This document shows, piece after piece, positions 30,816-35,851 of a stretch of 42,620 nt of DNA. Position numbers and translations under genes: made by a program. The stretch is from Bacteroidales bacterium (lineage in GTDB: Bacteria > Bacteroidota > Bacteroidia > Bacteroidales > UBA932): positions 1-42,620 of the forward strand of contig JAGCYX010000015.1 of NCBI GenBank assembly GCA_017960585.1, in the 5' to 3' direction. Under the pieces are notes generated by a model. It saw only the letters and a program-made list of their open reading frames with translations. It was not told the origin of the DNA and did no database searches. Position 1 is the stretch's first letter; the number at the start of each line of letters is the position of its first letter.

Positions 30816-32420
30816 ATGATGAAACGGAGTTTCGCGGATATTTTGCAGGGACTGGACAGCGACCGGGCGCAGAAAGTGGCCCGCAAGTTGCCCGCGTGGG
30901 CCGCGGCCGGCGCTGAAATCCCCTCCGCCCTAGCCCTGGAGCAGTGTTCGTCTGCCGCCACCGCGTGCTACAAGGCAGAACTGGCAGTTGCTGTCGTTTC
31001 AGCTAACAGTTATTTTTCTCCCGACAGCGCTGGACAGGCGGCTACTGCTGCAAAACTACGCGCTGCGCGCTATCCCTCCCAACCTGGCGGTTGGGCCCCT
31101 CCCGTTCACGAGGCCACGGGCGGCCACGGTTTTGCAGCAGTACCGCCTGCTCCGGCTTACCAAGACAAGATGAATACTGTTTTGGATTTGACAGGCGGGA
31201 TGGGAGTGGATTCGTGGGCGTTCAGCCAGGTGGCGGAGCGGGTGGTGTATTTCGAGCGGAACGAGGAGCTGGTGGAGGCGGCGAGGCGGAATTTCGCGCG
31301 ACTGGGGGCGGACAACATCGAGTTGCGCTGCGAGACGGTGACGCCGGAGACGGAGCTGCCGGAGGCGGATCTGATCTATGCCGATCCGGCGCGCCGCGAC
31401 GCCGCGGGCCGCAAGGTCTTCCTGCTGGAGGACTGCACGCCGGACATCCTGACGCTGCTGCCGATGTTGCTCCGGAAAGCGCCGGCGGTGCTGCTGAAGC
31501 TTTCGCCGATGGCCGACCTGACCATGCTCGCCGAGCGGCTGGGGCCCGCGCTGCAGGAGATTCACGTCGTCGAGCTCGACGGTGAGGTCAAAGAACTTCT
31601 CTGCCTCCTCCGCCGCGACGACTCTCCCGCCGAACCCGCCATCGTCGTCGTTCAACTCTCCGGACAGGCGGCTGCTTCAGAATTGCATACTTCACGCAGC
31701 GGCGAACTGCCTCCGGAGACGTCCACTCTTACGGAGCCGCCCGATAGGGCAAGATCCCCCTGGAAGGGGGTGCAGGGGGTTGAGAAAAAGCCTGCTTGCA
31801 GGCTACGGTTTCCGGAGGCAGTTGCCGCTGACGTTCCGATAATGAAACCGACATTTGCTCCAGAGAACAGTTTGCGTTTTCGATTATCCGAGGAGCGTGA
31901 GGCGGAAGCGCGGTACGCGGCGGAGGTGCGGCCGGGCGACGTGCTGCTGGAGCCGTGCGCGGCGCTGCTGAAGGCCGGCGCGTTCCGCCTGCCCAGCGCC
32001 CGCTGGAACCTGCTGAAACTCGCGCCTTCGACTCATCTCTACCTCCTGCCGGGCACGGAAAAGCCCTCCAGCGCGCCCGGGGAGTCCATTTTCTACGTCC
32101 CGGGCACAGAAACGCCCCATTCTGCTCCCGGCAACCACTTTTTCAAAGCCCGCACCGTCAAGGAGGTACTGCCGCTGGGCGCAGCGGCATTCAAGGACCT
32201 GCGGAAGCGCTTCCCTCGCGCGGAAGTCACCGCCCGCAACCTCCCCCTGGGCAGCGCCGAACTCCAGAAGAAACTCGGCATCCCTCCCGGCGGCGACGTC
32301 CACATCTTCGGCTGCCGCCTCTCCGACAACTCACACGTTTTAATCATTACCGACACCTCCCCCGCGTCGGACAGCGGAGCGGAAATTGGTTTTCCGGCAA
32401 ACCTGTCCGGAACGAAGTGA
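30816..32420 (+). CDS. Class I SAM-dependent methyltransferase with THUMP-like C-terminus, expanded by repeat insertions
   Basis: A 534-residue protein. Its conserved parts match a Bacteroidota methyltransferase family of about 390 residues: an N-terminal helical region (PSALALEQCSSAATACYKAE), SAM motif I VLDLTGGMGVD at 122, the D-P-A-R-R-D catalytic-type motif, LKLSPMADL, and the THUMP-like tail VKEVLPLGAAAFKDL, TARNLP and GGDVHIFG. Target RNA or DNA is unknown. Between these blocks lie non-family stretches: about 74-112, 294-339 and 514-534, each matching a palindromic element in the DNA, plus a 17-residue tandem duplication at 412-445. The frame stays open through all of them. The start at 30816 (or 30819) directly follows the -7 element. 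Confidence 0.82.
   Translation: MMKRSFADILQGLDSDRAQKVARKLPAWAAAGAEIPSALALEQCSSAATACYKAELAVAVVSANSYFSPDSAGQAATAAKLRAARYPSQPGGWAPPVHEATGGHGFAAVPPAPAYQDKMNTVLDLTGGMGVDSWAFSQVAERVVYFERNEELVEAARRNFARLGADNIELRCETVTPETELPEADLIYADPARRDAAGRKVFLLEDCTPDILTLLPMLLRKAPAVLLKLSPMADLTMLAERLGPALQEIHVVELDGEVKELLCLLRRDDSPAEPAIVVVQLSGQAAASELHTSRSGELPPETSTLTEPPDRARSPWKGVQGVEKKPACRLRFPEAVAADVPIMKPTFAPENSLRFRLSEEREAEARYAAEVRPGDVLLEPCAALLKAGAFRLPSARWNLLKLAPSTHLYLLPGTEKPSSAPGESIFYVPGTETPHSAPGNHFFKARTVKEVLPLGAAAFKDLRKRFPRAEVTARNLPLGSAELQKKLGIPPGGDVHIFGCRLSDNSHVLIITDTSPASDSGAEIGFPANLSGTK
31035..31149. repeat. Inverted-repeat element 1 inside the methyltransferase gene
   Basis: Arm CAGGCGG-C-TACTGCTGCAAAAC (31035-31056) is inverted at 31129-31149, where it reads GTTTTGCAGCAGTACCGCCTG; only one base is extra. 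Between them is a smaller palindrome (CCAAC...GTTGG). It encodes the Gln/Pro/Gly-rich residues 74-112. Confidence 0.8.
31662..31830. repeat. Inverted-repeat element 2 inside the methyltransferase gene
   Basis: Arm CAGCGGCGAACTGCCTCCGG (31697-31716) is inverted at 31812-31830 (CCGGAGGCAGTTGCCGCTG). The left flank GGACAGGCGGCT (31662-31673) also occurs at the left arm of element 1 (31032-31043). The interior has a C/G hairpin (CCCCCTGGAAGGGGG) followed by GCAGGGGGTT. It is read in frame. Confidence 0.75.
32049..32150 (+). repeat. Tandem direct repeat, two 51-base units, inside the methyltransferase gene
   Basis: Units 32049-32099 and 32100-32150 encode PGTEKPSSAPGESIFYV and PGTETPHSAPGNHFFKA. 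The units keep the reading frame and have diverged. Confidence 0.7.
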
Positions 32421-32512
32421 CGCAGGGGGTCCGGGGGGAACGCCCCCTGGTCATCATATATCCGGTGTGCCGGATTCCGTCCGCCCGTCTGGAAGACTCC
32501 GACGCGGGAGGG
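32356..32512. repeat. Inverted-repeat element 3, overlapping the methyltransferase stop codon
   Basis: Arm CCTCCCCCGCGTCGGA (32356-32371) is inverted at 32498-32512 (TCCGACGCGGGAGGG). It begins just after the family's normal C-terminal end (HVLIITD), supplies the last 20 codons and the stop, and contains the G-rich block at 32419-32455. Confidence 0.65.
32419..32455. repeat. 37-base G-rich hairpin repeat, copy 1
   Basis: It begins GACGCAGGGGGTCC, forms CCGGGGGG/CCCCCTGG and ends GGTCATC. It overlaps the methyltransferase TGA stop codon. Copy 2 at 33985-34021 differs at two of 37 positions. Confidence 0.85.
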
Positions 32513-32566
32513 TGAATAGTGGAGAATTTTGACGCAATCGTGACATCCGCGAGGGGGAATAATTGC

Positions 32567-33970: not shown

Positions 33971-33979
33971 CCAGGAGCG

Positions 33980-35851
33980 TCAGCGACGCAGGGGGTCCGG
34001 GGGGACCGCCCCCCGGTCATCCAGTAGCCACTTCGTCCAGAAGATTTCTTCGGCAGCAGCATCGTGAAGATGCTGCTTGCCGCGATAGCCGTGCATCCCG
34101 TCGGGATAGATGCGGGTCTCGAACTGGTAGCCGGCCTTCTGGAGGGCGTCGATGAGCTGCAGCGTGTTCTGGAAATGCACATTGTCGTCGCCCGTGCCGT
34201 GCGTCAGGCACAGCGCGTTCGGCAGCGGCTTCGGCCCGTCGCCTTCGAAAACCGAAGGCACCCAGGTCATCACCGACGCCTCGGCGTAGCCCTCGGGATT
34301 CGCCTGCGGCGTGTCCATGAAGCGCTCCGTGTAGTGCGTATCGTAGAGGTGCCAGTCGTACACCCCGCCCCCGGCGATCCCGCAGCGGAAATACTGCGGA
34401 AAGCGCAGCACCAGCATCGCCGTCGTCGTGCCGCCGAAGGAGAAACCCTTCACCCCGATCCGCGAACCGTCCACGTACGGCAGCGCCTGCAGCCACTTCG
34501 CCCAGGCGATGTAGTCCTGCAGCTCGATCACCGTCATCCGGCGGAACGCCTGGTCCATGCCCCGGCGCCCGTTCTCCCCCGACGAACGGGGATCCACCAC
34601 GATGTAGATGACGCCGTTCTCCCAGCACCAGGCGTCGGAAGCGTCCCGGTCCTGCCAGCTGTCCCGTACGTAGGCCGTGCCCGGTCCGCCGTACAGCTGC
34701 ATCTGCACGGGATATTTCTTCGACGGATCGAAGCCCGCCGGCAGAGACATCAGCCCGTACAGGTCGAAGCCCTCGTTCTCGATCTTCACCACCTGCGGCT
34801 CCGGATACGCCTCGGGCACCTCCACCAGCGTCGAATCGATCTTCATCGTATACTTGTCCGTCCGGCCCGACACCATCACCCAGGGCTTCCGGGCGGTGGA
34901 CGCCGCCGCCGTGAAGGTCTTCCCGTCCTCGGAAATGTATGCCCCGGACACGTTCAGCTCCGGATCCGTCAGCGCCGTCACGCGCCCCTTGCGGTCCAGG
35001 CGGTAGAAGGTCGTGTGCAGGCGGGAATCCCGCTTCGCGGTGAACCACACATCCCCCTTCTTCTCGTCCACCTTCAGCAGGCGGATGCCCCAGTTCTCCC
35101 CGTCCGTCAGGCGCTTCAGCGTCCCGTCGTAACCCAGGAAATAGATCTGCTCCCAGCCCGACTCGAAATTGCGCGCCATATACAGCCCCTTCTCCGTGAA
35201 GATCATCCCTTCGATCCAATCCACCCACGCATCCGGGTACTCCTCGTGATACACCTGCCGCTTGGAACCGTCCGCCACGCTCACCGCGTACAGGTCCAGC
35301 ACCGACTGGCGCCGCGGCTCGCGCGACACATACAGCTCGCGCGAGTCCGCCCCCCAGAAGGGCGTCCCGAAATACTGCTCCGGCGAATCGTCGAAATCAG
35401 CCCAGACCGGCTCCGCGCCCGCCCGAGCCTCGATGATGCCGATGCGCACGGAAGGATTCGCCTCCCCCGCTTTCGGGTAGCGCGTCTGGTTGAGCGTCCC
35501 GTCCTGCCCGAAGGGCGAATAGATGGGAAACATCGGCACCGCCGAATTGTCGAAGCGGTAGAAACCCAGCCGCTGCGAATCGGGACTCCACCAGAAGGCC
35601 TTGTAGCGCGACGCGCGCCCGAAAATCTCCTCATAATACACCCAGGAGGCATAGCCGTTCAGGATCAGCGCCGACCCGTCGAAGGTCAGCCGCGTCTCCG
35701 TCGAATCCGCCACCGAGCGCACCCAGAGGTCGTTGTCACGGGTAAACGCTTCCATCGTCCCGTCCGGCGACGGCGTCACGTTCAGGTCCGCCGCCCGCAG
35801 CGCGAACACCGCCAGGCAGCCGGACAGCATCAGGCACAAAAACTTTCTCAT
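33980..35851 (-). CDS. S9 family peptidase (dipeptidyl-peptidase IV type), tail altered by a repeat
   Basis: A 623-residue exported serine peptidase (signal peptide MRKFLCLMLSGCLAVFALRA). A beta-propeller (DNDLWVRSVADSTETRLTFD, FWWSPDSQRLGFYRFD) is followed by a hydrolase domain with S471 (GFSFGG), D555 (GTGDDNVHFQNT) and H587 (DGMHGY). It is the canonical DPP IV arrangement, though shorter than the usual 700 or more. Its last 13 residues come from a G-rich hairpin repeat instead of the native end. The start at 35851 overlaps the helicase stop by four bases; a longer frame upstream lies inside the helicase gene and was rejected. It is the last gene of the 39553-33980 operon. Confidence 0.9.
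   Translation of the reverse strand: MRKFLCLMLSGCLAVFALRAADLNVTPSPDGTMEAFTRDNDLWVRSVADSTETRLTFDGSALILNGYASWVYYEEIFGRASRYKAFWWSPDSQRLGFYRFDNSAVPMFPIYSPFGQDGTLNQTRYPKAGEANPSVRIGIIEARAGAEPVWADFDDSPEQYFGTPFWGADSRELYVSREPRRQSVLDLYAVSVADGSKRQVYHEEYPDAWVDWIEGMIFTEKGLYMARNFESGWEQIYFLGYDGTLKRLTDGENWGIRLLKVDEKKGDVWFTAKRDSRLHTTFYRLDRKGRVTALTDPELNVSGAYISEDGKTFTAAASTARKPWVMVSGRTDKYTMKIDSTLVEVPEAYPEPQVVKIENEGFDLYGLMSLPAGFDPSKKYPVQMQLYGGPGTAYVRDSWQDRDASDAWCWENGVIYIVVDPRSSGENGRRGMDQAFRRMTVIELQDYIAWAKWLQALPYVDGSRIGVKGFSFGGTTTAMLVLRFPQYFRCGIAGGGVYDWHLYDTHYTERFMDTPQANPEGYAEASVMTWVPSVFEGDGPKPLPNALCLTHGTGDDNVHFQNTLQLIDALQKAGYQFETRIYPDGMHGYRGKQHLHDAAAEEIFWTKWLLDDRGAVPPDPLRR
33985..34021. repeat. 37-base G-rich hairpin repeat, copy 2
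   Basis: It begins GACGCAGGGGGTCC, forms CCGGGGGG/CCCCCCGG and ends GGTCATC. It is read in frame as the last residues of the S9 peptidase (DRGAVPPDPLRR) and lies directly between the two copies of that gene's tail. Confidence 0.85.

Follow-up and report, generated by a model that had tools for sequence, protein, structure and literature searches.

How can one gene hold three strongly folding palindromic segments and a tandem duplication, and still be read through in a single frame? The question is raised by a methyltransferase gene in the window, which here denotes the whole 42,620-nucleotide stretch of DNA analysed. The source genome is a draft of 2.06 Mb in 113 contigs (81% complete, 5.8% contaminated), and we take it that its genus may be Cryptobacteroides. 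The encoded protein is composed of a Rossmann methyltransferase block, a PG_1098 ferredoxin-like domain and a THUMP-like domain. PF22013 (E 4.3e-11) and PF18096 (E 1.5e-10) match over the Pfam cut-off, a match to PF13847 lies below it, and a solved homologue exists (3ll7). The gene and the segments within it are located as follows.

30816..32420, plus strand: host gene, PG_1098-type methyltransferase of 534 aa including the inserts (Pfam)
31032..31155, plus strand: element 1, family 1 copy, with arms 31032-31056 and 31129-31153 flanking a conserved core (exact match)
31662..31676, plus strand: flank common to element 1, probable remnant left arm (repeat search)
31693..31835, plus strand: element 2, family 2 copy, with arms 31697-31720 and 31808-31830 (exact match)
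31756-31781, plus strand: GC-rich repeat nested in element 2
32049..32150, plus strand: tandem 51-nt duplication, PGTE...SAPG units, at 32049 and 32100
32354..32516, plus strand: element 3, family 3 copy, with arms 32356-32371 and 32498-32511 (exact match)
32368-32389 and 32477-32501, plus strand: family 3 ends within element 3
32405..32454, plus strand: family 4 repeat nested in element 3 (blastn match, 92%)

All three hairpins lie where the original prediction had placed them, and folded as single-stranded DNA each is far stabler than its shuffles (z -5.77, -7.34 and -5.47 for elements 1, 2 and 3, with 0/200 shuffles equally stable in every case). Covariance models were built from 22 family 1 copies (R1) and 18 family 2 copies (R2). 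R1 recognises element 1 at 31032-31152 with 133 bits (E 1.1e-31), and R2 recognises element 2 at positions 2377-2521 of locus L044 (E 9.8e-10). The frame stays open over the inserts from 30816 to 32420, and element 3 supplies the C-terminal residues and the stop codon, both as had been claimed. The tandem duplication is equally real, with its 51-nt unit at 32049 and 32100. Because this unit is no stabler than its shuffles (z 0.01), it does not count as a hairpin of the element kind. The number of PGxE...APG units varies among methyltransferase orthologues, from none in G149 and G065 to four in G250.

The flank that elements 1 and 2 were said to have in common is indeed present at 31032 and 31662 (15 nt, 93%), but the second occurrence lies outside the element 2 hairpin. 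At the corresponding site of G301 and G283, the identical flank forms the left arm of an intact family 1 copy. Judged from these sequences, the flank at 31662 is therefore probably the remnant left arm of a family 1 copy lost from site 2, the site now held by element 2.

Further matches in the own genome number 18 for element 1, 4 for element 2 and 34 for element 3, of which 24 take in only the nested GC-rich repeat of family 4. Reading the copies with their flanks separates families 1 and 2, which have part of the core in common, family 3, the nested family 4, and family 5, found in relatives; outside the R1 and R2 matches, assignment to a family was judged by eye. Across the genus, R1 finds family 1 in at least 49 of 61 genomes, with up to at least 40 matches per genome and at least 24 in the own genome, and R2 finds family 2 in at least 51 of 61, with up to at least 41 per genome and at least 26 in the own genome. 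Since the two models recognise many common places, these counts do not add. When R1 was run over the order, at least 3 of 149 genomes matched; among the matches listed are the own genome, one genome from another genus of the family and one from another family. We interpret each of the three segments as a copy of a short palindromic element, mobile but non-autonomous, of a kind that has spread through a Bacteroidales genus, mobility being the presumed cause.

Orthologous sites support this interpretation. The methyltransferase gene was compared at 19 loci, some of which also served to build R1 and R2. The relatives are uncultured Bacteroidia or Bacteroidales, mostly metagenome assemblies, and several of seven distinct ones come from rumen or omasum. 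Site 1 separates the N-terminal part from the methyltransferase block; R1 or R2 matches there in 11/19 loci, and neither does in the other 8/19. The hairpins that occupy this site among relatives belong to different families, and the core is reversed in G058. At site 2 a match is found in the own genome, G301, G283, G199 and, weakly, G322. G307, G097, G258, G250, G224, G008, G204 and G015 are without a match at both sites. The exact segments are thus missing from related genomes, as expected from the original prediction of a family of non-autonomous mobile hairpins that the gene tolerates in frame, between its conserved blocks; many copies exist elsewhere in the genome, and no distant orthologue with the same segments was found among those examined.

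The same picture is seen in ten other host genes compared among seven relatives, in which a given loop may be empty, contain a remnant or be occupied by different families. In a XerC-like gene of G080 (L152) and a RlmI-like gene of G283 (L112), in-frame remnants keep only the first part of family 2, encoding the peptide LPPETS. These remnants point to loss by in-frame deletion. No clear direct target duplication was seen in the occupied and empty pairs read, whose flanks are strongly diverged. The own genome is a draft and most relatives are metagenome assemblies, which could raise the suspicion of an assembly or binning artefact; this is hardly credible, because dozens of separate assemblies, some of them of only 5 to 8 contigs, show these loci and families again.

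Insertion into genes is common. Among 21 loci inspected in the own genome, 15 lie within trusted open reading frames, belonging to 14 genes, and 6 lie outside such frames. The identities of the 14 host genes rest on Pfam support, and by their finer names we take them to be the methyltransferase, TldD, an RlmI-like methyltransferase, an aminotransferase, TldE/PmbA, a XerC-like recombinase, an FAD protein, PolA, a HemW-like radical SAM protein, TrpC, mannose-6-phosphate isomerase, RmlD, KsgA and a porin. In a set of 29 copies from elsewhere, one per genome, 10 sit within Pfam-supported open reading frames, 17 are intergenic and 2 are undecided, this status being judged by eye. Among the genes read, which do not amount to a systematic survey, no clearly broken host gene was seen.

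The host frames are kept. For 63 orthologue open reading frames of the ten host genes, both flanks of the site are retained in 61 by 4-mer count; of the remaining two, one keeps both flanks in an alignment judged by eye and one runs off its contig. These counts bear on the idea that the elements are skipped in translation or spliced out, like the byps of yeast mitochondria, and add no peptide. Such bypassing is known, according to the part of PMC6649704 concerned with it, and the hairpins do sit in genes of an essential type. Skipping needs no open host frame, yet 62 of the 63 frames are open across the site and the other is cut by the contig end, so we consider skipping very improbable. Most likely, the elements are translated as extra peptide, presumably located in variable linkers or loops. 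The window protein was modelled by AlphaFold together with seven relatives; the model was poor (mean pLDDT 49.3, pTM 0.40; low over the inserts and over much else too) and was left out of the evidence on the inserts.

The elements do not owe their open frames to a design of their own. A preferred frame, or a built-in compatibility with translation, had been proposed for them, and we rejected this together with a stop-free design: 32 scored coding copies use five of the six frames (10, 9, 7, 4 and 2 copies), and the number of open frames per element, of six, is as in shuffles (3.70 versus 3.87 shuffled for coding copies, 3.71 versus 3.67 shuffled for intergenic copies). The frames open across the elements are explained by high G+C together with selection on the host gene. 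The elements persist inside genes where length and frame permit, and the suggestion that they are domesticated as protein is not supported.

An unusual feature of the elements is that a conserved core is flanked by outer arms that vary between copies yet remain complementary. The core of family 1 hardly varies, and all eight outer-helix pairs (8/8) have changed on both sides. By shuffles that ignore kinship, arm covariation is 0.445 in family 1 against 0.171 when shuffled (sd 0.017, 0/500) and 0.220 in family 2 against 0.135 (sd 0.010, 0/500); with the arms slid against each other, it is at most 0.098 and 0.096, respectively. Five pair measures were used, of which two in family 1 (78/500 and 41/500) and one in family 2 (267/500) are not clearly above shuffles. 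In 27 copies from 27 genomes, namely the 29 one-per-genome copies minus 2 at contig ends, the median alignment score between arms is 48 within a copy and 15 between copies. The intergenic copies of the one-per-genome set have their arms paired as well as the others.

Arms were also ranked as partners at a fixed length of 25 nt in 49 of 53 copies after removal of overlaps, copies near sequence ends having been dropped beforehand. The own partner ranks first in 25/26 copies of family 1, 8/14 of family 2, 0/5 of family 3 and 1/4 of family 5. The low ranks outside family 1 indicate that part of the arm is family consensus. Copy-specific arm matching is thus a strong effect in family 1; in the other families it is partial or unproven, being weak in families 3 and 5. 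In addition, intergenic copies at L209 (G016, element at 1500) and L211 (G060, element at 777) have common arms and opposite core orientation. This suggests that the core has been inverted between its arms in this pair.

How do arms that differ from copy to copy come to match? The clearest evidence is found in a gene for an EamA-type transporter (Pfam), compared at 30 loci, with the helix motif in 22 and both landmarks in 17. In G011, the left arm enters codons of a transmembrane helix that align across orthologues. At 20/21 positions, the outermost 21 nt of the right arm agree with the inverse of this left helix, and the piece scores 19 to its own helix and at most 11 to the helices of 21 orthologues. 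In G105 the core is reversed, and a 37-bp arm with one bulge takes in the end of the gene's own helix; the copied helix end is less conserved there than in G011. Scored against the inverted downstream sequence, the helix reaches 31 in G011 and 30 in G105; an inverted helix copy is missing from the six orthologues whose loop is shortest (scores 4-7). Among the loci read, host copying is clear in this one gene of two species only. Elsewhere an arm overlaps conserved host codons by about 7 nt, as at the end of a YggS-like gene and in KsgA of G199, or not at all.

On this basis we propose that the conserved, structured core is the mobile part and that the outer arms vary by locus. By folding back, the short inverted ends of the core may act as primers for DNA synthesis templated by the adjacent host strand, either during insertion or during a later replication. 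An inverted copy of the local flank would thereby come to form one side of the element, and later template switching of the same type could keep both arms matched. Manufacture or repair of the arms by copying of the local flank, with fold-back as its presumed step, is the better, not the settled, account of them. Taken as a whole, the account of mobile palindromic elements that persist in frame and have flank-copied arms seems to us probable. It is also possible, and is put forward only tentatively, that the core alone is mobile and builds its own ends, so that the private arms record the host sequence at insertion and keep being rewritten.

Alternatively, the arms might travel with the element and drift as pairs under hairpin selection or local mismatch correction, with no copying from the host. 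The methyltransferase left arm GGACAGGCGGCTGC is present at both sites 1 and 2, as it is in G301 and G283, and this fits arms carried along with the element. The aminotransferase copy likewise differs between the own genome and G301 by paired changes (CCCCTGG/CCAGGGG versus CCCTTGA/TCAAGGG), five other relatives being without the copy, and the arms of family 2 are partly consensus. The transporter arms of G011 and G105, however, match their own helix codons and not those of the orthologues, and pure selection leaves the equally good pairing of intergenic copies unexplained. We therefore regard arms that merely travel as rather unlikely.

Another reading has the core insert into the tip of a hairpin already present at the target. 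Hairpins without a core do occur: a perfect palindrome of 22 nt lies in the RlmI-like gene of G301, and the arms CGACGGAGG/CCTCCGTCG pair in a YfhO-like gene of G199. The YfhO-like gene is longer in G058 and G307, with similar arms, so G199 more likely holds a deletion remnant; it had been considered as an ancestral empty site and was rejected as such after further relatives were compared. Moreover, the six short-loop transporter orthologues are without such a hairpin, and in eight stretches stems of at least 8 occur at only 0.8 to 2.1 times their shuffled number, for which reason genome-wide palindrome formation was dropped as an explanation. Stems of at least 10 are 2.7 to 16.7 times as frequent as in shuffles of the same eight stretches, where the shuffled counts are small. 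Insertion into a pre-existing hairpin accordingly appears improbable, and copying of the local flank is preferred to it.

To our knowledge, discussion of in-frame palindromic elements has centred on Rickettsia and Wolbachia, and a search of the open-licence literature found no description of such elements in Bacteroidales. The closest known kind, compared by description and not by sequence, are the Rickettsia palindromic elements (RPE; Ogata and others 2000 and 2002), covered as in-frame palindromic elements in part of a 2024 review, which calls a similar process in other prokaryotes conceivable (PMC10969869). Like RPE, the elements described here are palindromic, about 100-150 bp long, divided into several families and found in frame in unrelated genes, with a predicted extra peptide. 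Unlike RPE, they belong to another phylum, use several frames and both orientations, and occupy loops that are reoccupied by different families. Rickettsia palindromes are said, in the section of PMC6649704 that mentions them, to lose repeat identity with time, whereas the arms of families 1 and 2 change in pairs, families 3 and 5 being less clear.

Matched arms have a parallel in Nematomorpha mitochondria, where coding palindromes are described and template switching is proposed by the authors; in the passages concerned, each arm encodes conserved protein, and there is no mention of a mobile core (PMC6649704). Both systems have inverted repeats in translated genes with arms kept matched, whereas the elements here consist of a spreading, repeated core with arms mostly in variable segments. 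They combine an RPE-type mobile core with matched arms of the Nematomorpha type. Prokaryotic MITEs are likewise short and non-autonomous with inverted ends and both intergenic and intragenic copies, and occasional in-frame fusions are noted for them in part of the review (PMC10969869); the constant terminal inverted repeats of MITEs are absent here, the outer arms varying by copy.

REP/BIME sequences with RAYT resemble the present elements in that both are hairpin repeats of genomes encoding Y1 transposases. The elements differ in being about 120 bp long, with a branched core, and often intragenic. Of the 49 genomes with family 1, 43 have Y1 matches, compared with 3 of the 12 without it (Fisher p 4.5e-5, a test that ignores kinship). 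Ten Y1 loci searched with R1 and R2 gave no match at E 0.1 or better, with one R1 match at E 0.31, and a short blast of 30 Y1 loci gave only fragments, in 2 of them. The elements do not adjoin the tested Y1 genes, and a RAYT-like Y1 transposase as mobiliser is only a lead. The own genome holds two RAYT-like Y1 transposase genes, L272 (C27) and L273 (C3).

The genus has hundreds of sampled genomes, in which an orthologous site can be empty, occupied or reversed, or retain no more than a remnant. Such sites let the entry, change and exit of hairpin DNA in essential genes be followed. If the arms are indeed inverted local flank, each copy records a template-switching event, and flank-copied arms would offer a natural system in which to test fold-back DNA synthesis in bacteria. 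Peptide segments like PSQPDGWAPPVHEATGGHG in the predicted proteins of this group should be read with the warning that they derive from mobile DNA.

Two smaller observations concern repeats outside the elements of the methyltransferase gene. A further GC-rich family 4 repeat (94% to the core) lies at 33974-34021 of the window, 3' of the next gene. In the HemW-like gene (L017, L104, L114, L122 and L135), a small coding hairpin without a mobile core lies upstream of the insertion site, and it carries compensating changes in five species.
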